Below are positions 21,434-38,310 of a stretch of DNA of 64,000 nt, in pieces (the stretch's first letter is position 1; each line of letters opens with the position of its first letter). A model generated the notes under the pieces. It ran no database searches and was not told the origin of the DNA. It was given only the letters and a program-made list of their open reading frames with translations. Location of the stretch: contig JARGOX010000008.1 of the NCBI GenBank assembly GCA_029233925.1, positions 69,156 through 133,155 of the forward strand. The letters run 5' to 3'. This stretch comes from Rhizobiaceae bacterium (lineage in GTDB: Bacteria; Pseudomonadota; Alphaproteobacteria; Rhizobiales; Rhizobiaceae). A program made the position numbers and the translations under genes.

Positions 21434-21434
21434 C

Positions 21435-22793
21435 ATGCAAGATGCGTTGATGATCGGCTTTGCCGGGTTGGCGGTACTGGTTCTGCTGATCGCCATTCGG
21501 GTTCCCATTGCCTATGCAATGATACTGGTCGCCGGTGTTGGCGTCACCATTCTCAATGGGCCTGCGATTTTTCTGAGTCAGCTCAAGACATTGGCCTATG
21601 GTCAATTCTCGATCTACGACCTGTCGGTCGTGCCGATGTTCGTGCTGATGGGCAATATTTCCACCCGCGCTGGCCTTTCCAAGGATCTGTTTCGCGCGGC
21701 CAATGCCTGGCTTGGCTGGATGCGTGGCGGTGTGGCCATGTCCGCAATTGCGGCCTGCGCCGGTTTCGGGGCCGTTTGCGGCTCCTCGCTGGCAACCGCA
21801 TCGACCATGGGCCAGGTTGCCCTGCCGGAATTGAAGCGCTTCAAATATTCCGGTTCATTGGCAACGGGCACAGTTGCAGCCGGAGGCGTATTGGGCATTT
21901 TGATCCCGCCCTCGGTGGTGCTTGTGATCTATGCGATCATCGTTGAAGCCAATATTGTCACCATGTTCATGGCCGCTTTTATCCCCGGGATCATTGCTGT
22001 CATCCTGTTTTTGCTGACCATTGCCATCTATGTGCGCCTCTGGCCGGAAGCAGGCCCGCCCGGAGATGCCGTCAATCTGCGCGAGTTTCGCGATGCATCG
22101 ATAAATGTCATCCCGGTTCTGGTGATCTTTGGCCTGGTGATCGGCGGTATCTATTTCGGATATTTCAATCCGACGCCAGCGGCGGCTGTCGGCGTATTCT
22201 TCGTCTCTCTCTACGGCATCGTGCGGGGTGATATTCGCTGGAAGGACATGCGCGGCGCCTTGCTGGATACTGCAAAGACGGCGGGAATGATCTACCTGAT
22301 CCTGCTGGGCGCTGAAATGCTCAAGATCTTCATGTCGCGTGGCGGCGTGCCGCAGGCCGTGGCCGAGTGGATGGTGAGTTCCGGTCTGGCGCCGATGACA
22401 ATTCTGGTGCTCTTGCTTGTTGCCCTGATCATTCTGGGCTGCCTGATGGATTCCCTTTCGATGATCCTCTTGGCCATCCCGTTTTTCTGGCCGGTGCTGG
22501 TGGAGCTTAATGGTGGAGATTACGTGTCAGCGGCGCAGGCCGGTTTTGGCATGGGCACCGAAGACTTGAAAATTTGGTTCGGCATATTGGCGCTGATTGT
22601 GGTGGAACTCGGGTTGATCACGCCGCCAGTCGGCATGAATGTTTTCATCATCTCAGCTCAGGCCACGGATGTGCCAATGTCGGAAACCTTCAAGGGAATC
22701 ATACCCTTCTTTCTGGCAGAGATTGTACGCATCACATTGTTGATCGCATTTCCCATCATCGTTTTGTGGATGCCGCGTTTTCTCTCCGGGTGA
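21435..22793 (+). CDS. dctM: TRAP transporter large permease, DctM family
   Basis: A 452-residue secondary transporter with about 12 hydrophobic segments. Signatures are GFGAVCGSSLATASTMGQVALPELKR (read as GFGAVCGSSLATASTMGQ then VALPEL) near residues 115-140, the GGVLGILIPPSVVLVIYAI region, and LGLITPPVGMNVFI near the C-terminus. It should use a sodium or proton gradient. The start at MQDALMI has AGGAAG upstream. Confidence 0.93.
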   Translation: MQDALMIGFAGLAVLVLLIAIRVPIAYAMILVAGVGVTILNGPAIFLSQLKTLAYGQFSIYDLSVVPMFVLMGNISTRAGLSKDLFRAANAWLGWMRGGVAMSAIAACAGFGAVCGSSLATASTMGQVALPELKRFKYSGSLATGTVAAGGVLGILIPPSVVLVIYAIIVEANIVTMFMAAFIPGIIAVILFLLTIAIYVRLWPEAGPPGDAVNLREFRDASINVIPVLVIFGLVIGGIYFGYFNPTPAAAVGVFFVSLYGIVRGDIRWKDMRGALLDTAKTAGMIYLILLGAEMLKIFMSRGGVPQAVAEWMVSSGLAPMTILVLLLVALIILGCLMDSLSMILLAIPFFWPVLVELNGGDYVSAAQAGFGMGTEDLKIWFGILALIVVELGLITPPVGMNVFIISAQATDVPMSETFKGIIPFFLAEIVRITLLIAFPIIVLWMPRFLSG

Positions 22794-22857
22794 CAAGACA
22801 TCCTGCCCGCTTTAAATTCCCTGAAAATCTATAGCCTCGTTCAATGGAGAAATGATC

Positions 22858-23979
22858 ATGGCAAAGGCCAAACCACCCTTCCGCGCTGACCATGTGGGCA
22901 GCCTGTTGCGTCCCGACAGTGTCAAAGATGCCCGCAAAAAGCACTTTGAAGATAAAACCATTTCCGCCGCCGAACTGAAGGCCGTGGAAGATCAGGCAAT
23001 CCGCGATGCCGTTGCCATGCAGGAAGACGTCGGCCTTCTTGCCGTCACCGACGGCGAATACAGACGCTCTTTCTGGCATTATGATTTCATGGGTGGCCTG
23101 ACCGGGCTGGATCTGGAAGAACGCGATGAGGGCGTGCAATTTGCCGGGGTGAAGCTGCGTCCGATCTATCCCACCATCACATCGAAACTGGATTTTCCAG
23201 ACGACCACCCGATGCTGGACCATTTCAAATTTGTCGCGTCCGTAACCAATGTGGTGCCGAAGATTTCCATTCCGGGACCGAGCTGCTGCCATTTCCGAAC
23301 AGCATCGGCTGATATTCATCCCAAGGAATACGCCGATCAGGACATTCTGCTGGCTGACATCGCGGCCACCTACAAAAAGGCCGTTGCGGCTTTTTACAAG
23401 GCCGGGTGCCGCTATCTTCAGATGGACGACATTTTCTTTGCCTATCTGTGTGATCCCAAACACCGGGCAGCACAAAAGGCAGACGGGCGCGATCCCGATT
23501 GGCTGATCGACCGTTATGCATGGATGATGAATGAGGCCATCAAGGACCGCCCAGATGACATGATCATCGGCATGCATATGTGTCGCGGCAATTTCCGCTC
23601 AACCCATGCAGCAGAAGGGGCCTATGATGCCGCCGCTGACGCCGTGTTCAACAAGACCGGCGTTGATGTCTTCTTCATGGAATATGACACGGACCGCGCC
23701 GGTGGTCTGGAACCTCTGAGCCTGTTGGCCAAGGGCAAGCAGCGGGTATTGCCCGGGTTCATCACCACCAAGGTGGGCACGCTCGAGACCGTTGATGATC
23801 TCAAGCGCCAGTTTGAGACTGCCGCAAAATTCGCGGATATGGATCAGCTCGGCATTGCGCCGCAATGTGGCTTTGCTTCAACCGAAGAGGGCAACTCACT
23901 GACCCATGACGACCAGCGCAAAAAACTTGAACTGGTGGTTCGCACGGCTGAAGAAATCTGGGGCGGTGTCGACAGCTGA
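22858..23979 (+). CDS. MetE C-terminal-like (UROD/MetE superfamily) enzyme
   Basis: A 373-residue homologue of the catalytic half of cobalamin-independent methionine synthase (YxjG/YxjH type), lacking the N-terminal MetE domain. Visible are FRADHVGSLLRP at the N-terminus, PGPSCCHFR, the zinc-ligand candidates His and Cys in GMHMCRGNFRS, and the third Cys in APQCGFAST. The superfamily also includes epoxyalkane:coenzyme M transferase, so the reaction could be thiol alkylation or dealkylation other than methionine synthesis. GGAGAA precedes the second of two close ATGs. Downstream of the TRAP genes by 64 bp. Confidence 0.85.
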   Translation: MAKAKPPFRADHVGSLLRPDSVKDARKKHFEDKTISAAELKAVEDQAIRDAVAMQEDVGLLAVTDGEYRRSFWHYDFMGGLTGLDLEERDEGVQFAGVKLRPIYPTITSKLDFPDDHPMLDHFKFVASVTNVVPKISIPGPSCCHFRTASADIHPKEYADQDILLADIAATYKKAVAAFYKAGCRYLQMDDIFFAYLCDPKHRAAQKADGRDPDWLIDRYAWMMNEAIKDRPDDMIIGMHMCRGNFRSTHAAEGAYDAAADAVFNKTGVDVFFMEYDTDRAGGLEPLSLLAKGKQRVLPGFITTKVGTLETVDDLKRQFETAAKFADMDQLGIAPQCGFASTEEGNSLTHDDQRKKLELVVRTAEEIWGGVDS

Positions 23980-25212: not shown

Positions 25213-26124
25213 ATGCGGATTCATTCAAGTGCGATTCACTATTTCGACGCGGTGCGCAGGGCTGGATCGATACGCGAGGCTGCGCGCCGTCTCAATGTTG
25301 CTTCTTCGGCCGTCAACCGACAAATACTCAAACTGGAAGACCTCGTCGGCACACCGCTTTTTGATCGCTCATCGACCGGTGTCAGCCTGAGTTCCGCCGG
25401 TGAGATCCTGGCCCATCATGTGATTGTTGTCCTGCAGGACCTGGACCGGGCAAAAGCCGAGATTGACGCCCTGAAGGGAGCCAGGATCGGCCATCTGACA
25501 ATTGGCGCTGTAGAAGGTGTATGCACATCGCTTCTGCCGATCGTTCTGCGCGAACTCAAGCAACGGGCGCCCCGGATTACCTATACAGTCGATGCCATGG
25601 GATCTGCAGCCATTCCCGAGCAGGTGCAGAACGGCCTGATGGATATCGGAATAGCGTTCAATCTGCCGCGGTCACCGGAATTGCGGCAGATTTTTGTTGC
25701 CAAATTCAAGCTCGGCGCGATCATGGCGCCCGACCATCCGCTGGCGCAGCGCGAATTTGTCACCTTCAGCGATTGTGCCGACTATCCAATGGTCTATGCG
25801 AGCAACGATTTGTCGATTTCGCAATTGCTGGATCCGTTGATCACCCAATCCAAACGCACCATCGACCCGGCCATGCGTACGAACTCCATTGACCTGATGC
25901 GTCAGCTTGCCATGCAGGGCTCGGCCATCGGCTTCCAGACGCTGGTCGGATTGGATCGTTCCATTGCCATGGGTGAGCTGGTCCATGTTCCCCTCGATGC
26001 AAAAGGCCCTGTCTGGAGTGATCTGGGGATCTATGTGCGCGCGGGGCGTTCTGTTCCTGCCGCGGTGGATCTGTTTCTCAAGATATTGGTTGAAGAGATT
26101 CAGATGATCGAGGGTGCAGGCTGA
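25213..26124 (+). CDS. LysR-family transcriptional regulator
   Basis: A 303-residue regulator with an N-terminal winged helix-turn-helix (AVRRAGSIREAARRLNVASS then AVNRQILKLEDLVGTPLFDR) and a periplasmic-binding-like effector domain (HLTIGAVEGVCTSLLPIVLR). AGGGGG lies 9 bp before the ATG at MRIHSSAIH. It is 153 bp upstream of, and in line with, the heterocycle-type catabolic operon, so it is the likely regulator of that operon. The repeat element ends 80 bp before it. Confidence 0.92.
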   Translation: MRIHSSAIHYFDAVRRAGSIREAARRLNVASSAVNRQILKLEDLVGTPLFDRSSTGVSLSSAGEILAHHVIVVLQDLDRAKAEIDALKGARIGHLTIGAVEGVCTSLLPIVLRELKQRAPRITYTVDAMGSAAIPEQVQNGLMDIGIAFNLPRSPELRQIFVAKFKLGAIMAPDHPLAQREFVTFSDCADYPMVYASNDLSISQLLDPLITQSKRTIDPAMRTNSIDLMRQLAMQGSAIGFQTLVGLDRSIAMGELVHVPLDAKGPVWSDLGIYVRAGRSVPAAVDLFLKILVEEIQMIEGAG

Positions 26125-26277: not shown

Positions 26278-27261
26278 ATGGCTACAACGCTTGATGCAAA
26301 AACAGTTCAGACGGCAACATTGCCGATAATCGATGTATCCGGCCTGTCTTCACACCATGCCGGTGACCGGGCCGCTGTCGGAAAAACTCTGCGGGCAAGC
26401 TGCCTCGACAAGGGCTTCTTTTACTGTTCGGGGCACGGTGTCCCCCAGGGCCTGATGGATGCAGCCTTTGAAGAGGCGCGCGGGTTCTTTGATCAAACGC
26501 TTGAAGAGAAGATGCGGGTGGAGAAGTCAGTCTCCAAATGCAATCGCGGCTATGAGGTGCTGGGTGGCCAGACTCTGGAAGCAGGTGCACCACCGGATCG
26601 CAAGGAAGGCTATTATATCGGCCTGGAACTGGACGAGAGTGATCCACGGGTCGTTGCCGGTCGTTTCAATCGCGGACCGAATGTGTGGCCTGAGGGACGT
26701 GTCGGTTTTCGCCCCGCCATGAAGGCCTATTTTGCGGCGCTGCAGGACCTTGGTGAACGGTTGATGCAGGGAATGGCGCTGTCGCTGGATCTGCCGGAAG
26801 ATCATTTCAAACCCTTTTGCAAGGACCCGATGGCGACCCTGCGCCTGTTGCATTATCCGCCTCAGCGCCCGGACGCAAGCCAGGGTGAAAAGGGCGCCGG
26901 TGCCCATACTGATTTTGGCGGGCTGACCATTCTCATGCAGGACGATGTCGGCGGGCTTCAGGTCTATGACAATGAGAATCAAAGCTGGATCCATGCCAAT
27001 CCGGTTCCGGGTGCATTTGTTGTCAATCTCGGCGACATGATCGCCCGGTGGACCAACGACACCTACCGTTCAACGCTGCATCGTGTGGTCAATGCCTCCG
27101 GACGGGAACGCTATTCCATCCCGTTCTTCTATGTCGGCAATCCGGACTACGTCGTCAGTTGCATTGAGACCTGCGTCGAGCCGGGCGGGTCACCCAAATA
27201 CCCTCCGATCACGGTCGAGGAGCATCTGCAGTCCATGTACAAGAAAACCTATGTCGCATGA
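26278..27261 (+). CDS. 2-oxoglutarate-Fe(II) oxygenase, IPNS/GA20-oxidase-like
   Basis: A 327-residue oxygenase of the isopenicillin N synthase-like family. N-terminal DIOX_N region (LPIIDVSGLS, CLDKGFFYCSGHGVP); catalytic facial triad His210-x-Asp212 (AHTDFGG) and His268 (STLHRVV); 2-oxoglutarate-binding Arg278-x-Ser280 (ERYSIPFF). All key residues are present. It should hydroxylate, desaturate or demethylate a small molecule. GGGGAT lies just upstream of the ATG. It heads the operon and overlaps the next gene by ATGA. Confidence 0.9.
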   Translation: MATTLDAKTVQTATLPIIDVSGLSSHHAGDRAAVGKTLRASCLDKGFFYCSGHGVPQGLMDAAFEEARGFFDQTLEEKMRVEKSVSKCNRGYEVLGGQTLEAGAPPDRKEGYYIGLELDESDPRVVAGRFNRGPNVWPEGRVGFRPAMKAYFAALQDLGERLMQGMALSLDLPEDHFKPFCKDPMATLRLLHYPPQRPDASQGEKGAGAHTDFGGLTILMQDDVGGLQVYDNENQSWIHANPVPGAFVVNLGDMIARWTNDTYRSTLHRVVNASGRERYSIPFFYVGNPDYVVSCIETCVEPGGSPKYPPITVEEHLQSMYKKTYVA

Positions 27262-28115
27262 CCCCTCCTGCGGCGGCTGCTCCTTACCCGAAAATGTCTG
27301 AAGTTCCCGATACGGTGATCCTGATCCACGGTGCCTGGCAGGGAAGCTGGGCGTGGAACGCGCTTGTGCCCTATCTGAGCGCAACTGGTATTGTCTGTGT
27401 TGCAGTGGATCTTCCGGGCAATGGCCACGGGTCTGCGACCGATACCGAGATATCGCTTCAGACCTATCTGGACCATATCGGCAAGCTTCTGGCAAAATTG
27501 CCTGGAAAGGTTTCGCTGGTTGGCCACTCGGCTGGTGGCATTGTCGCCACCGCAGTCGCCGAAAATTTCCGTGAGAAAGTGTCACGCATTGCCTTCATTG
27601 CCGGGATGATGTTGCCGAGTGGAGTGGCCTTTGCGACGGTTCAGAAGAATGTCGCCGCAACGGCGGCCATCTCATACGGGATCACCAGCGAACTGCAATG
27701 GTCAGCTGACGGTCAGCAAAGCAGCGTTCCGCTTGCTGCGGCCAAAGCTATCCTGTTCAGCGATTGCCCGACGGAACTTGCAACAAGTGCCGCTGAACGT
27801 CTGACGCCCCAGCCCGAGGGTGGCCGGGCGATCAATGCCACCTTCACGCCGGAGCGGTTCGGCAGCCTGCCGAGGTTGTATGTCGAGGCGACAAAGGACC
27901 GTTCAATCGATCTGCTCCTGCAACGGCGCATGCAGGAACTGGTTCCGGGGGCATTGGTCGTATCCCTGCCAACCGGCCACACGCCGCAACTCAGTGCGCC
28001 TGATCTGCTTGCCAATTCCCTGATCCCCTTTCTGCTGGGGGAAACCGACTGCAACCTCTCGGATCGGTTTGCTCAGGGCAAATCCGAAAACACCCAATCA
28101 AAAACTGGAGTATGA
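27258..28115 (+). CDS. Alpha/beta hydrolase
   Basis: A 285-residue hydrolase resembling the plant methylesterase/hydroxynitrile lyase-like branch. The oxyanion region is VILIHGAWQGSWAWN near residue 20, the nucleophile elbow GHSAGG near 90, the acid Asp probably in ATKDRS and the His in TGHTPQL. No signal peptide. An ATG 12 codons later (27294) is an alternative start. It could cleave an ester or amide made or imported in the pathway. It overlaps its upstream neighbour by 4 bp. Confidence 0.88.
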   Translation: MTPPAAAAPYPKMSEVPDTVILIHGAWQGSWAWNALVPYLSATGIVCVAVDLPGNGHGSATDTEISLQTYLDHIGKLLAKLPGKVSLVGHSAGGIVATAVAENFREKVSRIAFIAGMMLPSGVAFATVQKNVAATAAISYGITSELQWSADGQQSSVPLAAAKAILFSDCPTELATSAAERLTPQPEGGRAINATFTPERFGSLPRLYVEATKDRSIDLLLQRRMQELVPGALVVSLPTGHTPQLSAPDLLANSLIPFLLGETDCNLSDRFAQGKSENTQSKTGV

Positions 28116-28117
28116 TG

Positions 28118-29104
28118 ATGAAACAAACCACCCTGAAAAAACTGATGATTTCTGCATTTGCCGTGGCCTTGAGCACAGGCGTCGGCCGTGCCGCTGATGC
28201 GGTCACCTTCATGATCGACTGGCTTCCGGCCGGCGACAAGGCAGCCGTCTATTATGGCGTGGAGAAAGGCATCTTTGCCGATGCCGGGCTTGACGTGACC
28301 GTTGCCATTGGGCGTGGATCTTCGGACGTTGTCACCAAACTTGCCACCGGCGCTGCCGACGTGGGAACAGGCGGTCTTTCTGCGCTGCTGCAGGCCGTGG
28401 CAGCAGAAGATGCGCCGGTCAAGGCCTTGATGCCGATCTACACCAAGCAACCGGATGCGATTTTCACGACCAGCGATTCGGGCATCGAAACACTCAAGGA
28501 TGTAGCTGGCAAAAAGCTGGCCACCGCCACATTCTCGTCTTCCAACGTATCGTGGCCGCTGGTGCTGGAAGCCAATGGCATTGATCCGGCAAGCGTTGAA
28601 GTCTTGAAAGTCGATCCCGGCGCGCTGGCGCCGATGCTGGCAACCGGTCAGGTCGATGGCACGATCAACTGGTTGACCGTTGCCCCGGCCTATATGGCGC
28701 CGCTCAAGGAAGTCGGCAAGACGTTCAAGGCGGTGCCCTGGTCTGAATATGGCTATGAAGGCTATGGGCTTTCGCTGTTCACATCCGACCGGATGATCTC
28801 TGAGCGTCCGGATGTGCTCAAGCGTCTGGTCGCCGCCTACCAGAAGGCAACGCTTGCCGCGATTGATGATCCGGCGGGTGCTGCTGCTGCCCTGAAAGCC
28901 ATGGTTCCCGAAGTCGACGAGCAGGTTGCAAAGGAGCAGTGGGAAGCCTCCATTCCATTGATGGTCAATGAAATCTCCGAGGCTGACGGCATGGGTGTCT
29001 TCAATCCGGAACTGCTGAAAGCATCGTGGGGCTGGGTCGCCAAGGCGCAGGGATACGAGATGGACAAGCTTGATCCGGTCACGGCCATTGCAGCAGGTTC
29101 CTGA
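28118..29104 (+). CDS. NMT1/THI5-like ABC transporter substrate-binding protein
   Basis: A 328-residue periplasmic protein with a signal peptide (LKKLMISAFAVALSTG, then GRAAD) and the NMT1 fold (FMIDWLPAGDKAAVYYGVEK, GRGSSDVVTKLATGAADVG). This family binds pyrimidine precursors of thiamine, riboflavin, taurine, sulfonates and nucleobase-like ligands. The third of three consecutive ATGs (28112, 28115, 28118) has the best spacing from GGAG. Together with the deaminase and Mo hydroxylase downstream, a nitrogen heterocycle ligand is likely. Confidence 0.9.
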   Translation: MKQTTLKKLMISAFAVALSTGVGRAADAVTFMIDWLPAGDKAAVYYGVEKGIFADAGLDVTVAIGRGSSDVVTKLATGAADVGTGGLSALLQAVAAEDAPVKALMPIYTKQPDAIFTTSDSGIETLKDVAGKKLATATFSSSNVSWPLVLEANGIDPASVEVLKVDPGALAPMLATGQVDGTINWLTVAPAYMAPLKEVGKTFKAVPWSEYGYEGYGLSLFTSDRMISERPDVLKRLVAAYQKATLAAIDDPAGAAAALKAMVPEVDEQVAKEQWEASIPLMVNEISEADGMGVFNPELLKASWGWVAKAQGYEMDKLDPVTAIAAGS

Positions 29105-29119
29105 TCAGAACGTCTTCAG

Positions 29120-29145
29120 CCGGGCGTCATCCGACGCCCGGTTTT
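29120..29145 (+). terminator. Hairpin with short T-run between binding-protein and ATPase genes
   Basis: CCGGGCGTC pairs perfectly with GACGCCCGG around an ATCC tetraloop and is followed by TTTT. It is a plausible partial terminator inside the operon that lowers expression of the downstream genes relative to the binding protein. Confidence 0.75.
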
Positions 29146-29164
29146 GCCCATGGGAAGGAAAAAC

Positions 29165-29947
29165 ATGAACATGCCCCCGGCCATTTCCTTCGATGCAGTG
29201 GAACAGGTTTTCACAGGCAATGACGGTGCGCCGATTCATGCCCTGTCCGACCTCTCTTTCTCGGTTGCCCGCCATGAATTCGTGTCGGTGCTCGGTCCAT
29301 CAGGTTGCGGCAAATCAACCCTTCTGCGACTCGTGGCAGGCCTGATTGCACCGACCGGCGGTTCGGTGTCGATCTTCGGATATCCGGTCCAGGAGCCCCG
29401 GGACGAGATCGGTATTGTCTTTCAAAAGCCGACGCTTCTGCCCTGGTATACCGTCATCAACAATGTGACCTTTCCGATGCGCCACAAATACGGTCGGGTT
29501 CAGGCCAAGGACACGGCCCGTGCTCTCCAATTGCTGGATCTGGTGGGACTGGCCGATTTTGCCGACAAGCGGATTGATGAGCTTTCCGGCGGCATGCAGC
29601 AACGGGTCGGCATTGCCCGGGCCCTGCTTCTTGATCCTGATATCCTCTTGATGGATGAGCCCTTCTCGGCGCTTGACGCCCTGACGCGTGACGAGATGAG
29701 TTTCGAACTGCTGCGCATCTGGCGCGACCGGCCGAAAACAGTGCTTTTCATCACCCATTCCATTCCCGAAGCGCTGCTTCTTTCCGACCGGATTCTGGTC
29801 ATGAGCGAGCGGCCGGGCTCTATTCGCGAGGAAATAAAGGTTCCGTTTGAACGCCCGCGGACACTGGAGACCTTGGGCGATCCGGAATTCACCCGCCTGG
29901 CGAATCACATTCGCAGCACGCTCTTCTCCAAGCCCGTTGCGGCATAG
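29165..29947 (+). CDS. Nitrate/taurine-type ABC transporter ATP-binding protein
   Basis: A 260-residue ATPase of the SsuB/TauB type. Walker A GPSGCGKSTLLRLV near residue 42, signature LSGGMQQRVGIARAL, Walker B ILLMDEPFSALD, and the H-loop FITHSIPEAL. The ATG is preceded by GGGAAGG. It pairs with the permease encoded 7 bp downstream and the NMT1-type binding protein upstream. Confidence 0.92.
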   Translation: MNMPPAISFDAVEQVFTGNDGAPIHALSDLSFSVARHEFVSVLGPSGCGKSTLLRLVAGLIAPTGGSVSIFGYPVQEPRDEIGIVFQKPTLLPWYTVINNVTFPMRHKYGRVQAKDTARALQLLDLVGLADFADKRIDELSGGMQQRVGIARALLLDPDILLMDEPFSALDALTRDEMSFELLRIWRDRPKTVLFITHSIPEALLLSDRILVMSERPGSIREEIKVPFERPRTLETLGDPEFTRLANHIRSTLFSKPVAA

Positions 29948-29954
29948 GCGGATC

Positions 29955-30767
29955 ATGACCAATCTCAATGAAAAGAAAACCGCGATCAGTCAGCGCCAGC
30001 AGGTGCTGCGTCTGCTCGACCGCTTTACCCCGGCGCTGGCATTCGTGGCACTGATTGGTCTTTGGGAAATCTCGACGCGGGTCTTTTCCATTCCCTCCTT
30101 CCTGCTTCCTGCACCCAGCCGGATCCTTGCCGATGGTTTTGCTGTCGCAGCGTCGACCTGGGCAGGGCATATATGGGCAACCATGCGCGTGGCCTTGATC
30201 GGTTATCTGCTGGCAATCGCCATTGGCATTCCCATGGCGGTCGGACTGGCCAAATCCCGGTTCCTGGCACGAACCCTCTATCCCGCGCTTATCATCATTC
30301 AATCGACGCCGATTGTCGCAGTGGCGCCGATCATCGTGGTGACCCTTGGTGCGGGCGATCTGCCGCGTATTGTGATCACCTTCCTGATCACCTTTTTCCC
30401 GATTGTCGTTTCGACAACCACCGGTCTGCTGGCAACGCCCGAAGAACTGATTGAACTGTCGCGGTCGCTGCGCGCGGGAACGCGACGCGAGGTCATGCAG
30501 GTGCGCCTTCCCTATGCGCTGCCCTATATTTTTTCGGCGCTGAAAATTTCGACAACCCTTGCCGTGATCGGTGCGGTGGTGGCCGAATTCGTCGCTGCCG
30601 ACAAAGGGTTGGGATTCTTCATTTCGTTTTCGACCTCATTTTTCAAAATTCCGCAGGCTTTTGCCGGGCTCGTTTTCCTGGTGATCTTGAGCATGCTGCT
30701 GTTTCGCACGGTCGGTTTCCTGCAAAAGCGCTTTGCGCCCTGGTCCCTTCCAAAGAATGAAAGGTAA
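29955..30767 (+). CDS. Nitrate/taurine-type ABC transporter permease
   Basis: A 270-residue BPD_transp_1 permease with about six hydrophobic segments. The EAA-like loop ELSRSLRAGTRREVMQVRLP lies near residue 166 and the C-terminal part (KISTTLAVIGAVVAEFVAAD) matches SsuC/ThiX-like permeases. The ATG at 29955 starts just after the ATPase stop. Forms one importer with the two preceding genes. Confidence 0.92.
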   Translation: MTNLNEKKTAISQRQQVLRLLDRFTPALAFVALIGLWEISTRVFSIPSFLLPAPSRILADGFAVAASTWAGHIWATMRVALIGYLLAIAIGIPMAVGLAKSRFLARTLYPALIIIQSTPIVAVAPIIVVTLGAGDLPRIVITFLITFFPIVVSTTTGLLATPEELIELSRSLRAGTRREVMQVRLPYALPYIFSALKISTTLAVIGAVVAEFVAADKGLGFFISFSTSFFKIPQAFAGLVFLVILSMLLFRTVGFLQKRFAPWSLPKNER

Positions 30768-30771
30768 TGCA

Positions 30772-31263
30772 ATGAACCACTCCCAGACCCAAGACGAAAA
30801 ATACCTTCGCATGGCATTCGCCGTGGCGGCGGCTGCCCGTGACAAGGGACAGCACCCGTTCGGCTGCATCATGGTTGGCCCCGAAGGTGACGTCCTTTTG
30901 GAACAGGGCAATGCCTTTGCCACGGACGGCCATGACATGACCGCCCATGCCGAACGCATTCTGGCCTCGCGTGCCAGCAGGGGCTGGGATGTGGAGTTTT
31001 TGTCCAAATGCACGATGTATACCTCCGCTGAGCCCTGCGCCATGTGTGCCGGGGCGGTTTACTGGGCCGGTATAGGTCGGGTCGTTTTTGGCCAGAGCGA
31101 ACACGATCTCAAGATCCAGACCGGCAATCATGACGAAAATCCGACGCTTGATCTGCCCTGCCGCACAGTCTTTGCGGCCGGCCAGCGCGATATAGAGGTG
31201 GTCGGCCCCTTGCTCGCGGACGAAGCCGCTGCGCTGCAGGAAGGTTTCTGGGCAGAAAAATGA
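30772..31263 (+). CDS. Nucleoside/nucleobase deaminase (CDA-fold, guanine deaminase-like)
   Basis: A 163-residue zinc deaminase. The metal and catalytic residues are visible: His59-Ala-Glu61 (TAHAERI) and Pro88-Cys89-x2-Cys92 (EPCAMCAGAVYW). PFGCIMVGPEG near residue 29 is typical of the guanine/cytosine deaminase branch. It should remove an amino group from a purine, pyrimidine or related ring before hydroxylation by the Mo enzyme encoded next. The gene overlaps its downstream neighbour by ATGA. Confidence 0.88.
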   Translation: MNHSQTQDEKYLRMAFAVAAAARDKGQHPFGCIMVGPEGDVLLEQGNAFATDGHDMTAHAERILASRASRGWDVEFLSKCTMYTSAEPCAMCAGAVYWAGIGRVVFGQSEHDLKIQTGNHDENPTLDLPCRTVFAAGQRDIEVVGPLLADEAAALQEGFWAEK

Positions 31264-32024
31264 ACGTCGACACAGCCTATGTTCGGCCGGCTGATATGGA
31301 AGACGCCATCAGCATCAAGGCCTCTTTGAGGGCAGCCGGCATGTACGGTTGCGGATTGACGGCAGCGCAGCTTGGCTGGGGCGTCAAAGGCCCGGAACAA
31401 ACGATCATCGACATATCAGGGCTTGATTTCGGACCGGATGTTTGCCTTGCGGATAGTGGATCAATGGTCCTGGCCGCCAACGCTCCGCTCGAACGTTTGC
31501 GCCTCAATCCGCTCATTTCCGGGCAAATGCCGACGTTCGCTGATTTCCTCGGATATGTCGGTTCCACAGCAATGCGCAATCAGGCAAGCCTTGGCGGCAA
31601 CCTGCTTTGGGGCGCCGGCGATCTGGAAGTGCTGTTTGCCGTTGTGGATGCAAAACTTCGTTTCGCTGGCAATGGCCGGGCCCAATCTCTGGGGCAGATC
31701 ACATCCGACCGGTCGGACGACCTGCTGGTTTCAATCATCGTTCCGGCGCTGCAGGAAAGCCGAATTTTTGTTGAGAAGCTTGGGCACAGGCAGGCCTTCA
31801 GTCCTGCCCGAGTCGTCGTGGCTGGCTGTGTCGGGCGGCAAAGCGTGAGGCTGGCGGTTCGTCTGGCGGGCAATCCGGTGGTGCTTGTCGAAACCTCATG
31901 GCCAATGAACGGACCTTTGGATGATGCGCTGTTCACCGGAGACACAGACATCCATCTGAAAACGGTCGCCCACAATTTGTTGCGCGGTCATCTGGCGCAA
32001 CTTGCTCAACAGGACATGGCATGA
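31260..32024 (+). CDS. Xanthine dehydrogenase-family FAD-binding subunit
   Basis: A 254-residue medium subunit of a molybdenum hydroxylase. The second FAD motif is clear (AMRNQASLGGNLLWG near residue 103) and the C-terminal CO_deh_flav_C region follows (EKLGHRQAFSPARVVVAG). The first FAD motif, usually AGGTDL-like, is degenerate here (MYGCGLTAAQLGWGV). The subunit is also shorter than the usual 280-290 residues. FAD should carry electrons from the iron-sulfur subunit to NAD or another acceptor. Confidence 0.85.
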   Translation: MNVDTAYVRPADMEDAISIKASLRAAGMYGCGLTAAQLGWGVKGPEQTIIDISGLDFGPDVCLADSGSMVLAANAPLERLRLNPLISGQMPTFADFLGYVGSTAMRNQASLGGNLLWGAGDLEVLFAVVDAKLRFAGNGRAQSLGQITSDRSDDLLVSIIVPALQESRIFVEKLGHRQAFSPARVVVAGCVGRQSVRLAVRLAGNPVVLVETSWPMNGPLDDALFTGDTDIHLKTVAHNLLRGHLAQLAQQDMA

Positions 32025-34237
32025 ACGCGGTGACGGGTCTGGAAGAAAAACTGCGTGGCACGTTTCGCTATTTGGCGGAAGGCCAACCGGAAGGCACGCT
32101 GCATGGCGCGTTGCTCACCAGCCCGCTGGCGCATGCCACCATTCGGCGGCTCGATGTCTCGGCTGCCCGGTCGCTGAACGGGGTGCATGCCGTTGTAACG
32201 GCTGCGGATGTTCCTTCCGACTTTTTGATGGGAACAGCCATTCTCGACCGTCCGCCACTGGCGCGTGCAAAAGTGCGCTTCCAGGGCGAGCCGATTGCTG
32301 CCGTTGCCGCCGAGACTAAGGCGATTGCCGATGCGGCCCTTGCCCTGATCGCATTTGAACTGGAACCTCTGCCGATTGTGAGCGCGCCACGGGATGCGCT
32401 GGACGAGGGCGCTGCGAAACTGCATGATTCAGGCAATCTTTGCTCCGACTTCATCTATTCAAGGGGCGATGCCAGAGCAGACTTTGAGGATTGCGCCCAT
32501 GTGATCGACCATACGCTCACCACGCCGCGTCAGGTCCCGGCTGCGATGGAACTGGAGGGTGGCATCTGCATCCCTTCGCCGACCGGCATCGAATTGCGTG
32601 CAGCCACCCACAGCCCGTTTTATACGCGCAGTCTGATCGCCAGCATGCTGGGGCTGCCGGACAAGGAAGTCCGCGTCATTGGCTCGCCAATCGGTGGCAG
32701 CTATGGCGGCAAGGAGGAGATCCATATCCAGCCCGTCCTCGCGCTGCTGGCCTGGACCGCCAGGCGACCGGTCAGGCTGGTTCTGGAACGGTCGCAAAGC
32801 ATGGCCTTTGCCACGACACGCCATCCTTTCGAGATTGCGCTCAAGATCGGCTGCGACAGAGCGGGCCGTCTGCTGGCACTCACAGCCGATGTGCTGGTTG
32901 ACAATGGCGCTTATGCAAGTTTTGGCCCGGAGGTTCTGGACACGGGGATGGAGTGCATCCAGAGTGCCTATGCCTTCAAATCCGTCAGCCTGAGGGGGCG
33001 TCTTGCCTATACCAACAATGGCGTCGGTGGTGCCTTTCGTGGTTTCGGCGCGCTGCAGACCCTGACGGCCATCGAACTTGCCGTCGATATTCTGGCGCGC
33101 AAGGCCAGCATTGATCCGCTGGCATTCAGGCGGATCAATCTGGCCGGTGCAAATGACCCGGGACCGCTCGGTCAGGCCATCATCCCCCAGCCGGAACTAT
33201 CAAAGGTCGCCGACGCCTTGTCGGCACTTCCAGTCTGGCGCGACGAGACGCCATCGCAGCGTTATCTCAGTGGCACCGGCTATGCGCTTGTGCGCAAGGG
33301 TGAAGGTTTTGCCGGAGGTGGCCCCAATGGCGCCAGCGGCGTGTTGGCTCTGACCCTTGATGGTCAGGTTACGTTTCAAAGTTCCCTTGTCGAAATGGGG
33401 CAGGGGCTTGAAAGCACCGTCAGAAATATCCTTCTTGCGTCCTTTGATCTCGGTGATGCTGACATCTGCTGTGCGACGGGATCCTCCGATGCCGGCGCCG
33501 ATAGCGGACCAACCTCCGCATCACGCGGCACGCAGATCGCACTGCGCCTGATCCGTGCTGGCAAGATGCCATTTCTGGAGAAACTCTACGTTGGGGCTGC
33601 CGAAATTCTACAAGTGCCAATGGATGCTCTGCGGCTTGGTCCGGGTGGTTTTTATCAACGAATGGCGCCCCAAAACAAACCCGATCTGTCCTTGAGTGAT
33701 CTTGCAGCCAGTGCTGGCGAAATCGTCACCCGGATCGACATACCGGGAATTGAAACCACGCAAGCGGGCGTCAAGGTGCACACGCTTTTTACCGCTTGTG
33801 CGGCGCGGGCAGGCGTGCGGATCGACCGCTGGACCGGACAGGTTGTCTGCACCGGCCTTGACCTGCTGCCCGCCTGCGGTCCGCCGATCAGCCCCCTGGC
33901 TTTTCATGGTCAGATGACCGGTGCCGGCGCACAGGCACTGGGATTCTGTCTCACCGAGCACCAGCCCTATGAGGAGGGTACGGTCATGGCGAGAAATTTC
34001 GACAGCTATTTCATCCCGACCATTGCCGATGTGCCGGATATCAATGTTCATCCGGTGACCTGGCTTGCGCCTGATGATCCGGTGGGTATCCGTGGCGCTG
34101 GTGAAATCGGGCTGAATGCCGCCGCACCGGCCATTGCCAATGCCGTCGCCAGCGCATTGGACGCCGCTCCAACACATTTGCCGGTACGACCCGAATGGGT
34201 TCTGGGCGTGCTTGCCAGGCAAGGACGCACCCCATGA
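32021..34237 (+). CDS. Xanthine dehydrogenase-family molybdenum-binding subunit
   Basis: A 738-residue catalytic large subunit. The N-terminal Ald_Xan_dh_C domain begins GTFRYLAEGQPEGTLHGALL; GGSYGGKEEIHIQPVLALLA, GAFRGFGALQ and MGQGLES are molybdopterin-binding motifs, and GIRGAGEIGLNAAAPAI near residue 691 holds the catalytic Glu of the GxGE type. All hallmark residues are present. It should insert water-derived oxygen into a heteroaromatic ring. Overlaps both neighbours by ATGA-type junctions, implying coupled translation. Confidence 0.92.
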   Translation: MNAVTGLEEKLRGTFRYLAEGQPEGTLHGALLTSPLAHATIRRLDVSAARSLNGVHAVVTAADVPSDFLMGTAILDRPPLARAKVRFQGEPIAAVAAETKAIADAALALIAFELEPLPIVSAPRDALDEGAAKLHDSGNLCSDFIYSRGDARADFEDCAHVIDHTLTTPRQVPAAMELEGGICIPSPTGIELRAATHSPFYTRSLIASMLGLPDKEVRVIGSPIGGSYGGKEEIHIQPVLALLAWTARRPVRLVLERSQSMAFATTRHPFEIALKIGCDRAGRLLALTADVLVDNGAYASFGPEVLDTGMECIQSAYAFKSVSLRGRLAYTNNGVGGAFRGFGALQTLTAIELAVDILARKASIDPLAFRRINLAGANDPGPLGQAIIPQPELSKVADALSALPVWRDETPSQRYLSGTGYALVRKGEGFAGGGPNGASGVLALTLDGQVTFQSSLVEMGQGLESTVRNILLASFDLGDADICCATGSSDAGADSGPTSASRGTQIALRLIRAGKMPFLEKLYVGAAEILQVPMDALRLGPGGFYQRMAPQNKPDLSLSDLAASAGEIVTRIDIPGIETTQAGVKVHTLFTACAARAGVRIDRWTGQVVCTGLDLLPACGPPISPLAFHGQMTGAGAQALGFCLTEHQPYEEGTVMARNFDSYFIPTIADVPDINVHPVTWLAPDDPVGIRGAGEIGLNAAAPAIANAVASALDAAPTHLPVRPEWVLGVLARQGRTP

Positions 34238-34689
34238 GAATTTCCTTTACGCTCAATGGTGAGCCGCAAAATCGGCAGGTCAATCCTTTTGACAAGGCGA
34301 CCAGCATCCTGGCGGAACAATGTGGCCAGGAAAGTGTCAAGACATCTTGCGCCATCGGGCGCTGCGGCGCCTGCACGATTCTGGTTGACGGCAAGTCGGC
34401 CAATGCCTGCCTGCTGATCGCCGCCAAGATGGATGGCACGGACGTGGTTACCGCCGAGGGATTGGGCGCACGCGCGGACGCCATTATTGATCGCCTTCGA
34501 CAGAACGGTGCCATCCAGTGCGGCTACTGCGCTCCGGGCCTACTGATCTCGCTGGTGGCTTTGCTGGAACGGGCACCGGACGGAGACAAGCTGGAGCGGC
34601 AGGAGTTGGAGACCGTTCTGGCCGGCAATCTGTGCCGATGCAGTGGCTATACAGCTCTGCGCAAGGCTATTTTGGCGCTCTCAAGTTGA
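34234..34689 (+). CDS. Xanthine dehydrogenase-family 2Fe-2S subunit
   Basis: A 151-residue small subunit. The plant-type cluster ligands are Cys39, Cys44, Cys47 and Cys59 (SCAIGRCGACTILVDGK); the second cluster uses Cys96, Cys99, Cys134 and Cys136 (QCGYC and NLCRC). Eight ligands are all present. The gene order FAD, Mo, FeS differs from the common FAD-FeS-Mo or FeS-Mo orders. It ends the operon and converges on the minus-strand cluster after 12 bp. Confidence 0.92.
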   Translation: MRISFTLNGEPQNRQVNPFDKATSILAEQCGQESVKTSCAIGRCGACTILVDGKSANACLLIAAKMDGTDVVTAEGLGARADAIIDRLRQNGAIQCGYCAPGLLISLVALLERAPDGDKLERQELETVLAGNLCRCSGYTALRKAILALSS

Positions 34690-34701: not shown

Positions 34702-35496
34702 TCAGGTTTCGCGACGGAAACGTGTGCCGGGCGCAGGTGGCGTTTCCGGCGGGCCGGCAAAACATTGCGCATGGGCCATCCATTGTGTCGCAATGGGTCC
34801 ACGGACTGACAATTGCGTATCCGCCACATGGCGGGTCTGGGTGACGACCTGTGCAAATTCCACGGCCTGTCCTTCAATGTGATCGGCTTGGTCAGGGTTC
34901 CCATAATCCCACACCGCGCCCGATGGGGCGAACAATCTGAGAAAGGGCATTTGTTCGGGGGCTGCCATGCCATGCACCTTGAAGGTCCAGCCGAAGGTAT
35001 TGACGCCGAGAACCACAATATTGCGAATGCGGTCGGTCTCCTGGCGCTTCTTGCCCAGCAGGTCGAAGACCTCATGGCCATGGGCCCAGGTTTCCATCTG
35101 CCGCGCGGTCATGGATGAGCGCACGGACATCTCCGGCCCGACCCATTTGACCCGTTGTTTGGGATCGAGCCGTGCCCACCGCCTGCCCATGTCGCGATAA
35201 AGGCCTTGCCAGACAGCCAGCAATTCAGAGCTGCGTTCTTTCACTGCCGCATTTTCGACCGCGCGCATGCCGGAAACGGCACTGGCCGCTATGGCTGAAC
35301 GCATGGTGTCCTGAAATCCGTCCGGGTCTGTCAATGACTGGTCGGCAGCACGATTCCAGAAGTGCAGGTGGACGAGGACGTCGTTGATGGTCCAGCCCTT
35401 GAATTGCGTCGGCCTGTCCCATGCCTGATCATCAAGATCATGCAGGATTGCTGCCAGCGCTTCGCTTTCCGACAGGAAATCTGTTGCCTGTTCCAT
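34702..35496 (-). CDS. TIGR03084-type DinB/MDMPI-like metal-binding protein
   Basis: A 264-residue protein of the mycothiol-maleylpyruvate-isomerase N-like fold. HLHFWNRA near residue 44 and ETWAHGHEVFDLLG near 136 supply His ligands of the DinB-type metal site, and the C-terminal half carries a steroid-carrier-like region. Homologues often accompany acyl-CoA carboxylase and atu-like genes, as here. GGAGGATTGA lies immediately before the ATG, within the end of the carboxylase gene, so the two are translationally linked. Function unknown. Confidence 0.75.
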   Translation of the reverse strand: MEQATDFLSESEALAAILHDLDDQAWDRPTQFKGWTINDVLVHLHFWNRAADQSLTDPDGFQDTMRSAIAASAVSGMRAVENAAVKERSSELLAVWQGLYRDMGRRWARLDPKQRVKWVGPEMSVRSSMTARQMETWAHGHEVFDLLGKKRQETDRIRNIVVLGVNTFGWTFKVHGMAAPEQMPFLRLFAPSGAVWDYGNPDQADHIEGQAVEFAQVVTQTRHVADTQLSVRGPIATQWMAHAQCFAGPPETPPAPGTRFRRET

Positions 35497-37488
35497 TCAA
35501 TCCTCCGCTTTTTCAGCGTCTTCAATATCGAACATCAGATCGTCGGATCCAGCCTGCTCGCCCGGTTTTACGCCGATCTGTTTCACGATACCGTCCACCG
35601 GTGCGATAATCCGATGCTGCATTTTCATGGCTTCCAGAATCGCCAGAGCATCGCCTTTGGCAACCTCTTGGCCCTCCTTCACAAGAAGTTCGATGACCAG
35701 GCCCGGCATGGGTGCGAGAACCCGTCCGCCTGCGGCAGCGGTTTCCGTCCGGTCGCCCGCCATCATGCGCTGGAAGGTGAAACGGTTTGCGCCAATGGCC
35801 AGCAGGATATCCGCCTTGTCGGAAATGACCGCAACAACATCAATCGTACGATCATTGACACGGGCGCGAAATGTCTGGTCCGTCCGTTCTTCGAGCGTGA
35901 TTGCGAATTGCTCTTTGTCAACGCCTACGGTCCAGACATCACCGTTACAGCCGGCGGTGAGTTCATATTCTGCATGCGCGTCGCGCAGATGAACCGGCGT
36001 GGGTAAAAGCGCCGCACTCGACCAGCCAAGCTGTGTTGGCGAAACATAAGGGGCCCTGCCAAAGGCGGCATTCTGCTCTGCCCGCAAACTCAAGGCGGCG
36101 GCCAGGGCAATCTCCTGGCTGGTGGGCACGGTCGCCGGGACACCGTCTGGATAATTTTTGCCGATAAAGGCTGTGGTGGCCGCACACTGCGTGAAATCCT
36201 CCATTGTCAGAATATCGGCCAGAAAGGCACTGTTTGTTACCGGTCCCAGCAGCACGCTATCGCGGATGGCCATGACCAATCGGTTGCGGGCAATCTCCCG
36301 CGTTTCTCCCCAGGCAATGATCTTGGCGAGCAGTGGGTCGTAGTATGGCGACACATCCAACCCGGTTTTGATGCCGCAATCAATGCGAAGACCCTTACCG
36401 GCTGCCGGTCGCCACAATGCAATACGGCCCGTTCCCGGAAGGAAGTCACGGGCCGGGTCCTCTGCATAAAGTCGTGCTTCAATAGCGTGTCCACGGATGC
36501 GCACATCGTGCTGTGCTAAAGCCAGCGGCTTACCCTGGGCAACCGCAATCTGCATGGCGACAAGATCAAGCCCGGAGACCATTTCGGTCACCGGATGCTC
36601 GACCTGCAGCCTTGTATTCATCTCCAGAAAATAAAACGCACTGGACGTGTCCAGCATGAATTCCACCGTACCGGCACCGCGATAATCCACCGCCATGGCC
36701 GCAGCGACGGCGGCTTTGCCCATGCGCTCGCTCAAATCCGGGTTCATCGCCGGGCAGGGGGCTTCCTCGATGACTTTCTGGTGTCTGCGCTGCACCGAGC
36801 AGTCACGTTCGCCCAGATGGATGCAATGGCCATGATTGTCGGCAAAGATCTGCACTTCGACATGACGGGCCCCTTCCAAGGCCTTTTCGATGATCAATTC
36901 GCCGGAACCAAATGCGTTGAGTGCTTCCGAACGGGCCATCGACAGCGCAGCGGCAAGTTCGCTTTCGCCCTGCGCCAGGCGCATGCCGCGGCCACCGCCA
37001 CCAGCCGCTGCCTTGACTATCACTGGAAAGCCGAGTTCATCAGAGGCTCTGATCACGGCGGCGTCGTCAAGATCACCGACTTCAAAGCCTGGCACACAGG
37101 GCACGCCGGCAGCGCTCATCAGCCGTTTGGCCTCGGCCTTGTTGCCCATCCGCCGGATGGCGCTGGCGGGCGGGCCGATAAAGATCAGCCCGGCCCCTTC
37201 TACAGCTTCGGCAAACAGCTCATTTTCCGACAGGAAACCGTAGCCGGGATGAATGGCGGCAGCGCCTCTTGCCTCTGCCGCATCAAGCACCCGCTCAATG
37301 TTCAGATAGCTCTCAGTGGCCGGTCCCGGGCCGATCAACACGGCCTCATCAGCAAGCGCCACATGTGGTGCTTTGGCATCGGCCTCGGAATAGACCGCTA
37401 TGGTCCGCAGGCCCAGGTCGTGGGCGGTCCGGATGATCCGGCAGGCAATTTCACCGCGATTGGCGACAAGAATCGAGTCAAAAGCCAC
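35497..37488 (-). CDS. atuF: Biotin-dependent acyl-CoA carboxylase alpha subunit (geranyl-/methylcrotonyl-CoA type)
   Basis: A 663-residue biotin carboxylase plus biotin carrier protein. N-terminal ILVANRGEIACRIIRTA, ATP-grasp motifs (KAAAGGGGRGMRLA, LGERDCSVQRRHQKVIEEAP read as ERDCSVQRRHQK, FLEMNTRLQVEHPVTE) and the C-terminal biotinyl motif EAMKM with Lys622. The GTG start is chosen because GGAGG and AGGACA precede it; a TTG seven codons earlier would overlap the upstream gene. The substrate assignment (geranyl-CoA) rests on the neighbouring atuA-like gene. Alternatives are methylcrotonyl-CoA or another branched enoyl-CoA. Confidence 0.85.
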   Translation of the reverse strand: MAFDSILVANRGEIACRIIRTAHDLGLRTIAVYSEADAKAPHVALADEAVLIGPGPATESYLNIERVLDAAEARGAAAIHPGYGFLSENELFAEAVEGAGLIFIGPPASAIRRMGNKAEAKRLMSAAGVPCVPGFEVGDLDDAAVIRASDELGFPVIVKAAAGGGGRGMRLAQGESELAAALSMARSEALNAFGSGELIIEKALEGARHVEVQIFADNHGHCIHLGERDCSVQRRHQKVIEEAPCPAMNPDLSERMGKAAVAAAMAVDYRGAGTVEFMLDTSSAFYFLEMNTRLQVEHPVTEMVSGLDLVAMQIAVAQGKPLALAQHDVRIRGHAIEARLYAEDPARDFLPGTGRIALWRPAAGKGLRIDCGIKTGLDVSPYYDPLLAKIIAWGETREIARNRLVMAIRDSVLLGPVTNSAFLADILTMEDFTQCAATTAFIGKNYPDGVPATVPTSQEIALAAALSLRAEQNAAFGRAPYVSPTQLGWSSAALLPTPVHLRDAHAEYELTAGCNGDVWTVGVDKEQFAITLEERTDQTFRARVNDRTIDVVAVISDKADILLAIGANRFTFQRMMAGDRTETAAAGGRVLAPMPGLVIELLVKEGQEVAKGDALAILEAMKMQHRIIAPVDGIVKQIGVKPGEQAGSDDLMFDIEDAEKAED

Positions 37489-37493
37489 TGTCC

Positions 37494-38300
37494 TCAGTCC
37501 TCCGCCCAATTGGGTTTGCGTTTTTCAAAAAAACTGGCAATGCCTTCGCGTCCCTCGTCCGACATCATGGTTTCGGCAAAGGTCTCGGCTGCCATCTGTT
37601 TCTGCTCTTCGCGTGTCAGATTGGGAAGCGCCAGAATCAGGTTCTTGGTGGCTGCCACAGCGCCGGGTGCGCAGCGCATCACCTGTGCCTTGACGCGGTC
37701 AATTTCCACATCCATGGAATCCGGTCCCTCTGCCAGAATGTCGACAAGCCCGGATTCAACCGCTTCGTGCCCCTTCATGGTGGAGGCAAGCAACATCACC
37801 CGGCGTCCCTTCCTGGGTCCCATTCGCTGCAGCACAAAGGCGGAAATCTGCGCCGGTGTCAGCCCGATCATCGTTTCGCTCAGGCAGAACCGCGCTTCGA
37901 CATCGGCAATGACCATATCGCCGACGCAGGCAAGCCCGAAACCACCGGCCATGGCCGCCCCTTCGATGGCCATGATCGTCACCTGTGGCAAGGCATTGAT
38001 CACATCGAACAAGGCTGCACCCGAAAGGCTGAGTTTGACAACATCCTCGCGGGTGGCGCTGCCGTGAAAAGCCGTCCTGAATGCTTTCAGATCACCGCCG
38101 GCGCAGAAGATGCCGCCCTGGCCGCGAAAGGTGACGCCGCGGATGTCGCGGCGATTGTGGATGGCCTTGCACACGGCAAAGAGATCATTGACCCGTTCGT
38201 TGGTCAGCGGGTTGCGGATTTCCGGCTGATTGAACCAGATTGTCAGCCAGCCGTCCTCAAGTTCGAGGTCGAGGGCGCCGGTCTCGGGAAGCCTGCTCAT
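37494..38300 (-). CDS. atuE: Enoyl-CoA hydratase/isomerase (AtuE/LiuC-like)
   Basis: A 268-residue crotonase. The oxyanion-hole segments are FRGQGGIFCAGGDLKAF near residue 55 and IEGAAMAGGFGLACVGDM near 102, with FCLSETMIGLTPAQISAFVL carrying the usual acidic catalytic position. In the atu pathway this step hydrates isohexenylglutaconyl-CoA. GGAG precedes two adjacent ATGs (38303 and 38300); the second has better spacing. It lies between the carboxylase subunit genes, as in atu and liu operons. Confidence 0.82.
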   Translation of the reverse strand: MSRLPETGALDLELEDGWLTIWFNQPEIRNPLTNERVNDLFAVCKAIHNRRDIRGVTFRGQGGIFCAGGDLKAFRTAFHGSATREDVVKLSLSGAALFDVINALPQVTIMAIEGAAMAGGFGLACVGDMVIADVEARFCLSETMIGLTPAQISAFVLQRMGPRKGRRVMLLASTMKGHEAVESGLVDILAEGPDSMDVEIDRVKAQVMRCAPGAVAATKNLILALPNLTREEQKQMAAETFAETMMSDEGREGIASFFEKRKPNWAED

Positions 38301-38310
38301 CATTGCACTC

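Follow-up and report, generated by a model that had tools for sequence, protein, structure and literature searches.

What is broken down by a gene cluster that joins an importer to an oxygenase, a hydrolase, a deaminase and a molybdenum (Mo) hydroxylase? The question is raised by nine genes in a stretch of 64,000 nucleotides (the window) from a Rhizobiaceae bacterium (assembly GCA_029233925.1, contig JARGOX010000008.1), which corresponds to C24:69156-133155 of the 6.1-Mb genome. Very probably, these genes form an accessory purine-catabolic module, and the surroundings of its relatives argue strongly for a purine as its substrate.

Operon structure and conservation

According to open reading frame calls and Pfam, the nine genes occupy positions 26278-34689 of the window on the plus strand, and a LysR gene stands on the same strand 153 bp 5' of the oxygenase gene:

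25213-26124, plus strand: LysR-family regulator, 303 amino acids (Pfam HTH_1 and LysR_substrate)
26278-27261, plus strand: IPNS-type Fe(II)/2-oxoglutarate oxygenase (2OG), 327 amino acids (DIOX_N and 2OG-FeII_Oxy above the Pfam cut-offs)
27258-28115, plus strand: alpha/beta hydrolase (ABH), 285 amino acids (Abhydrolase_6 above cut-off)
28112-29104, plus strand: NMT1/THI5-like ABC substrate-binding protein (SBP), 330 amino acids (Pfam NMT1, 130.8 bits against a cut-off of 20.5)
29165-29947, plus strand: ABC transporter ATPase, 260 amino acids (ABC_tran above cut-off)
29955-30767, plus strand: ABC transporter permease, 270 amino acids (BPD_transp_1 above cut-off)
30772-31263, plus strand: cytidine-deaminase-fold deaminase (DEAM), 163 amino acids (dCMP_cyt_deam_1 above cut-off)
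31260-32024, plus strand: Mo hydroxylase FAD subunit, PucC-like, 254 amino acids (FAD_binding_5 above cut-off)
32021-34237, plus strand: Mo hydroxylase molybdopterin subunit, 738 amino acids (Ald_Xan_dh_C, MoCoBD_1 and MoCoBD_2 above cut-offs)
34234-34689, plus strand: Mo hydroxylase iron-sulphur (FeS) subunit, 151 amino acids (Fer2_2 above cut-off, Fer2 slightly below its cut-off)

The nine genes are one operon behind the LysR gene, whose product is likely to be the local regulator. An earlier note on this DNA had described the nine-gene operon at the same positions, leaving out the LysR gene, and the gene calls, the Pfam matches and the recurrence of the order in relatives confirm it. Its statement that ATGA overlaps lock the genes together is slightly too strong: 4-bp overlaps of this kind are present at five of the eight junctions (2OG/ABH, ABH/SBP, DEAM/FAD, FAD/Mo and Mo/FeS), whereas the other three have gaps of 60 bp (SBP/ATPase), 7 bp (ATPase/permease, with the ATG at 29955) and 4 bp (permease/deaminase). 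Furthermore, the five enzyme activities counted there beside one importer are in fact four, i.e., oxygenase, hydrolase, deaminase and a single three-subunit Mo hydroxylase.

A nine-sequence 2OG alignment was used for a profile scan of genome contigs, which gave at least 561 confirmed relatives; the best 80 were kept as named loci (L numbers). Gene orders were established with a codon-scored gene caller and BLAST clusters, with a hidden Markov model (HMM) check on representatives only and some labels assigned by eye. The complete ten-gene order LysR-2OG-ABH-SBP-ATPase-permease-DEAM-FAD-Mo-FeS was present in 4 of the 80 loci (L054; L055 from Breoghania; L123 and L130 from Ideonella), with ~57-95% identity of 2OG. 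As ten genes recur in the same order, the arrangement is not due to chance. The closest 2OG among the matches listed (95% identity) is that of L054, a contig of a Rhizobiaceae metagenome-assembled genome (MAG). The six-gene core from 2OG to the deaminase is consecutive in 18/80 loci; L120 has the Mo enzyme in an operon without a deaminase gene. A LysR gene (48-98% identity) directly precedes 2OG in L054, L055, L068, L081, L083, L102, L110, L123, L130 and several Paraburkholderia loci.

The pairing of 2OG with ABH is more widespread. An ABH relative is present in 67/80 loci, being the next gene after 2OG in 66, and was found nowhere in the fetched stretch of the other 13. In a less biased sample of 398 genomes of the phylum, 2OG (E<=1e-95) and ABH (E<=1e-40) occur in the same three genomes, the host included, and are always adjacent. 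In the tree, all 68 2OG proteins whose genes are followed by ABH fall inside one clade of 92 rows (SH-aLRT 99), 24 rows of which have no adjacent ABH; note that the tool warned of long branches. The DEAM family is commoner than 2OG or ABH (34/398 genomes, E<=1e-35).

Purine genes and xanthine riboswitches around the relatives

The loci (up to ~21 kb) were searched with tblastn for 11 markers of purine breakdown (E<=1e-15, at least half of the marker aligned). Controls were 26 loci with a paralogous 2OG (20 and L036-L041, some of the listed places) and 19 arbitrary regions, chosen by hand rather than at random; a twentieth, L176, was excluded as it proved to be contig C14 of the host genome itself. 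At least one marker was found in 70/80 orthologue loci, 16/26 paralogue loci and 0/19 arbitrary regions, and at least two in 49/80 versus 2/26 and 0/19. The operon itself contributes two of the markers (deaminase and type-I Mo subunit). When these were left out, 52/80, 16/26 and 0/19 remained, and after additional removal of the PnrA-like transporter marker 47/80, 3/26 and 0/19 (p 2.6e-5 versus the paralogues). Ten orthologue loci had none of the 11 markers (L056, L057, L058, L062, L072, L091, L093, L115, L116, L124).

The neighbouring genes include those for PuuD, UraD, PuuE, Alc and AllA, which adjoin the module in relatives. In the HMM check, scores above cut-off were obtained for 8-oxoguanine deaminase (NF006055; L094 and L030) and for guanine deaminase (TIGR02967; L067); the check also revealed urate oxidase, OHCU decarboxylase and allantoicase in the representatives, and PuuE and ureidoglycolate lyase in L094. 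In part of 20 DEAM loci, the neighbours of the deaminase gene encode PnrA-like nucleoside transporters, transporters of the NMT1 type or a protein resembling 8-oxoguanine deaminase. A 2OG of 53% identity is present on many Acinetobacter plasmids. In the case of pAURM-1 (L029), its neighbours are genes for a nucleobase symporter, an OmpK-type porin and another 2OG oxygenase; a formaldehyde dehydrogenase gene lies ~7.6 kb from 2OG, separated from it by other genes and a transposase. Genes for NdmC/D/E-like proteins adjoin 2OG in Paraburkholderia (L105, L109, L111, L114, L117, L131) and on P. putida pKF715A. NdmCDE is the 7-methylxanthine demethylase, in which NdmC has no Rieske domain (PMC4408171); the NdmC-like genes tested near 2OG likewise encode no Rieske domain.

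Regulation in the relatives points to purines as well. The genes associated with the xanthine riboswitch (NMT1 motif, RF03054) comprise an IPNS/pcbC-like dioxygenase, an NMT1/THI5-like transporter, tadA-like/guanine deaminases and amidohydrolases, and have been tied to purine oxidation (Yu & Breaker 2020, PMC7373994). In that account of the associated genes, what exactly the dioxygenases do is given as not established, with an action on purines being expected. Xanthine and urate are ligands of the aptamer, whereas N1-, N3- and N7-methyl analogues are not accepted, and the riboswitch represses its genes at high levels of xanthine or urate; thiamin-related ligands elicited no response, and the label NMT1/THI5 is called misleading (PMC7373994).

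A scan of 20 relative loci gave RF03054 above the gathering score in seven (10 sites; one of the seven, L191, had been chosen for its deaminase). A strict riboswitch sequence motif was present at 20 sites in 15/80 loci and at none in mononucleotide-shuffled loci, and all five motif loci that were also scanned with Rfam matched. The gene 3' of the motif is 2OG at 14 sites, SBP at four, another NMT1-like SBP at one and an amidohydrolase at one. In L059, L074, L075, L080, L082, L084, L096, L097, L099 and L100, the riboswitch precedes a pair of oxygenase genes, the second of which is the orthologue of the window 2OG. Two sites per locus are found in L030, L059, L061, L065, L080 and L127, one before the SBP gene (in L127, the amidohydrolase gene) and one before the oxygenase gene. 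As the riboswitch heads these genes and senses xanthine and urate, the pathway in those relatives would be controlled by its expected products.

Enzymes, candidate route and rival substrates

The catalytic residues of 2OG, ABH and DEAM are intact in the alignments. In 2OG, H210-x-D212...H268 and R278-x-S280 are invariant (alignments of 48 and 44 rows), and the combination of DIOX_N and 2OG-FeII_Oxy with HxD...H and RxS is that of an IPNS-type enzyme. Pfam gave these two domains only and no TauD-family domain in 2OG; XanA-type xanthine hydroxylases belong to the TauD family and are marked by that domain. The AlphaFold model of 2OG (mean pLDDT 92.4) matched 9ovh, 6jyv, TraH, SpoC and then thymine-7-hydroxylase (T7H) best in the PDB; the first two come from an ancestral ethylene-forming enzyme and from P. 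aeruginosa (6jyv), and none of the matches fixes the substrate. In ABH, S91, D214 and H241 are invariant (38 rows), and the nearest PDB chains are pyrethroid hydrolase, plant esterases and hydroxynitrile lyases.

DEAM has the zinc motifs H59-A60-E61 and P88-C89-x-M91-C92 (24 rows). Its model (mean pLDDT 92.8) is closest in fold to MSMEG_3575 (Msd), followed by guanosine deaminase, tRNA adenosine deaminases and guanine deaminase. The likeness to cytidine-deaminase-fold GuaD covers the fold and the zinc motif; deamination of guanine is a prediction. A TadA identity was not obtained, as the NCBIfam equivalog cut-off was missed (63.8 versus 150 bits). ENxT and the region of W160 are kept within the DEAM family, and the PDB profile match stops short of this region. 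A second copy of the family is present at L185 (C41:5078-5539, 55% identity), off the operon and, by eye, outside any purine cluster.

For the Mo hydroxylase, the best NCBIfam families are pucC (FAD subunit), pucD (molybdopterin subunit) and pucE (FeS subunit), but all scores are below the cut-offs (pucD 484.3 versus 783.65, pucE 126.1 versus 254.3, pucC 59.2 versus 306.05, xdhB 239.8 versus 849.5 bits). Placed by motif, E232, R340 and E695 of the Mo subunit are the equivalents of E802, R880 and E1261 of bovine xanthine oxidase, which we take to function in purine binding and catalysis. The same three bovine residues have been named as docking contacts (PMC12369460). An acid at the E802 site occurs in two of the seven Mo subunits of the genome, i.e., in the window one and in canonical XdhB, and the site is E or D in the seven related type-I Mo subunits compared (L051, L052, L054, L055, L120, L123, L130). 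The R880 equivalent is Arg throughout the Mo subunits compared and was therefore useless as a discriminator, which leaves E802 alone. In L070, L071 and L076-L079 (Bradyrhizobium and an uncultured Rhizobiales MAG), 2OG-ABH is followed by another type of Mo hydroxylase with V at the E802 site. As the window Mo subunit keeps the acid, a purine-like ring should bind; as it falls far under all xanthine dehydrogenase cut-offs, xanthine itself need not be the substrate.

Elsewhere in the genome, contig C14 encodes the canonical pathway from guanine to ureidoglycolate: GuaD (572.4 bits, cut-off 375.4), XdhA (685.6 bits) and XdhB (1351.5 bits), both above cut-offs, PuuD (urate oxidase domain), UraD, PuuE and Alc (allantoicase), these last two also above cut-offs, and AllA (ureidoglycolate lyase). 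With GuaD and XdhAB on C14, DEAM and the Mo enzyme of the operon would be redundant for guanine and xanthine, and the operon is probably an entry to this pathway for a modified purine. We hold a modified purine as substrate with moderate confidence; that the modification is an N-alkyl group, removed in an N-alkyl step, is a tentative suggestion.

The route would then run as follows. The NMT1-type ABC system would import the modified purine, most likely an N-alkylated (e.g., N-methylated) guanine- or adenine-type base; 2OG would hydroxylate it, probably on the alkyl carbon, and ABH would process the oxygenated product; loss of the exocyclic amino group through DEAM would leave a xanthine-type ring; the Mo hydroxylase would oxidise a ring carbon to yield urate, and the chromosomal PuuD-UraD-PuuE-Alc-AllA set would complete the breakdown. 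The order of these steps and the role of ABH are weakly indicated. 2OG-ABH might be an undescribed system of nucleobase dealkylation, 2OG hydroxylating the N-alkyl group (e.g., of methylguanines from RNA/DNA turnover) and ABH cleaving a stabilised carbinol, so that the free base passes to the operon's own DEAM and Mo enzyme. We consider this possible, though on balance doubtful; if true, it would explain the dioxygenases under the xanthine riboswitch.

Several observations weigh against the purine module and its proposed route as a whole. RF03054 was absent from the window (Rfam gathering score, E<=1 and motif) and from the whole genome, and we found no characterised homologue that fixes the substrate. 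Redundancy with the C14 genes is no proof of a modified substrate. The 80 loci are the closest relatives of the query, some of them short, with several near-copies from Stutzerimonas, Paraburkholderia and Bradyrhizobium, and when the operon's own markers were removed but the PnrA-like marker was kept, orthologue and paralogue loci did not differ (p 0.82), because most paralogue matches were to a PnrA-like transporter alone. The NdmC-like genes accompany 2OG and do not substitute for it, and the best PDB matches of the L105 protein are SxtT and SxtDIOX of the saxitoxin pathway, only then NdmA and NdmB. A formaldehyde dehydrogenase gene is found near 2OG in 1/80 loci versus 2/26 and 1/19 in the controls; as there is no enrichment, this test lends N-demethylation no support. 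Finally, biuret and cyanuric acid hydrolase genes by paralogues (10/26) and relatives of such genes by orthologues (9/80) make triazine or oxidised-purine chemistry possible, and Msd, the nearest structure to DEAM, was solved with ammeline, 5-azacytosine and 5-azauracil.

In the strongest rival, 2OG hydroxylates the ring of a purine that is unmodified or oxidised (hypoxanthine, xanthine, 8-oxoguanine), in a parallel O2-dependent route to urate without demethylation. It agrees with the action on purines that Yu & Breaker expect of the associated dioxygenases (PMC7373994) and with the 8-oxoguanine deaminase-type genes that adjoin the module in many relatives, but the operon's own Mo hydroxylase is already fit to oxidise the ring, canonical XdhAB is encoded elsewhere in the genome, and ring hydroxylation has no obvious need for ABH; we rate it as conceivable without favouring it. 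Less probable still is an azapurine, a triazine or a ring-opened oxidised purine, with ABH opening or trimming the ring after oxygenation. Here the ligands of the Msd complexes are joined by the paralogous 2OG genes (~41-50% identity), which lie with genes for PnrA-like transporters and BiuH, AtzD, AtzE or HpxZ in 10/26 loci. Relatives of such triazine-type hydrolase genes are rarer by the orthologues (9/80, five of the nine weak at 31-42% identity), the plainest case being L060 with two biuret hydrolase relatives (75% and 45% identity), and the xanthine riboswitch and the 8-oxoguanine deaminases indicate the purine level. The sister 2OG operons themselves (L036, L038-L041, L138, L139, L154, L156, L157) combine a PnrA-like ABC transporter with varying sets of biuret amidohydrolase, AtzE, HpxZ, formamidase or cyanuric acid amidohydrolase, and their 2OG is predicted to be a second oxygenase in triazine/oxidised-purine breakdown.

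Xanthine dehydrogenases can also oxidise pterins, and pterin deaminases belong to the amidohydrolase family found beside the module. DEAM and the Mo hydroxylase might thus act on a 2-amino-pteridine, but in view of the riboswitch, the uricase/allantoin genes and the nucleobase or nucleoside transporters in the relatives a pterin-catabolic operon is quite improbable. Salvage of the thiamin pyrimidine (HMP), as the NMT1/THI5 label would have it, is hardly credible: SBP has a Pfam NMT1 match as well as weak PDB matches to THI5 and to a binding protein for a thiamin precursor, but no thiamin biosynthesis gene was found among the nine operon genes by Pfam, and we rejected this reading on gene context and on the ligand tests of Yu & Breaker (PMC7373994), in which thiamin-related compounds failed.

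The purine module stays our preferred reading of the operon. Upstream of it, on the same strand (window 21384-23979), are a TRAP-type large permease gene, assigned by eye, and a cobalamin-independent methionine synthase-like gene (Meth_synt_2). Downstream, on the minus strand (window 34702-39936), a gene with a maleylpyruvate isomerase N-terminal domain and, by eye, genes for biotin carboxylase, enoyl-CoA hydratase and carboxyltransferase are apparently a convergent acyl-CoA carboxylase cluster with no link to the operon. A PHROGs search gave a single match, to a family of unknown function.

Comparison with known systems

The earlier note had read the locus as an operon for import and ring oxidation of a heterocycle, which is supported and can be narrowed to a purine by the context of the relatives. 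It had also called the system undescribed. This no longer holds for the gene constellation, since both its component families and the connection with purine oxidation have been published for the xanthine riboswitch (PMC7373994); it holds insofar as the functions of the dioxygenases are not established there and a search of the open-access literature, mostly of titles and listings, found no characterised cluster of the same gene content and order and no characterised 2OG purine enzyme. New are the constant 2OG-ABH pair, the addition of the Mo enzyme and the replacement of the riboswitch by LysR. As a single unit comprises the importer and all four enzymes, the whole route could be reconstituted and the substrate found directly; if this is a modified base, the operon would reveal how the nitrogen of methylated nucleic acid bases is recycled by soil and marine bacteria.

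One of the closest published counterparts is the gene set of Yu & Breaker, with which the operon shares the pcbC-like 2OG dioxygenase, the NMT1/THI5-like transporter and the tadA-like deaminase. It differs in having a LysR gene instead of the riboswitch, and in the ABH beside 2OG and the three-subunit Mo hydroxylase, neither of which is named in the gene set as given there (PMC7373994). The Pseudomonas NdmABCDE system shares the purine niche and, in some relatives, NdmC/D/E-like neighbours of 2OG; however, the Ndm oxygenases are of the Rieske family, whereas the window 2OG is a 2OG-Fe enzyme of another fold, and no VanA_C/Rieske oxygenase, the mark of Ndm, was found among the nine operon genes with Pfam. 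Neurospora T7H is also an IPNS-type 2OG oxygenase, acts on a nucleobase methyl group and resembles the window 2OG in fold (TMq up to 0.84), but is only ~30% identical to it and has a pyrimidine as substrate. Mycobacterium smegmatis Msd and the cytidine-deaminase-fold guanine deaminases resemble DEAM in fold and zinc-site layout (~36% identity with Msd in the fold alignment), although Msd has HPE and EHC where the DEAM family has HAE and EPC. Finally, the Mo hydroxylase has the three-subunit Mo-FAD-FeS layout of B. subtilis PucCDE and keeps the purine-site acid, Arg and catalytic Glu, whereas its subunits fall far under the equivalog cut-offs and the genome has a separate canonical XdhAB.

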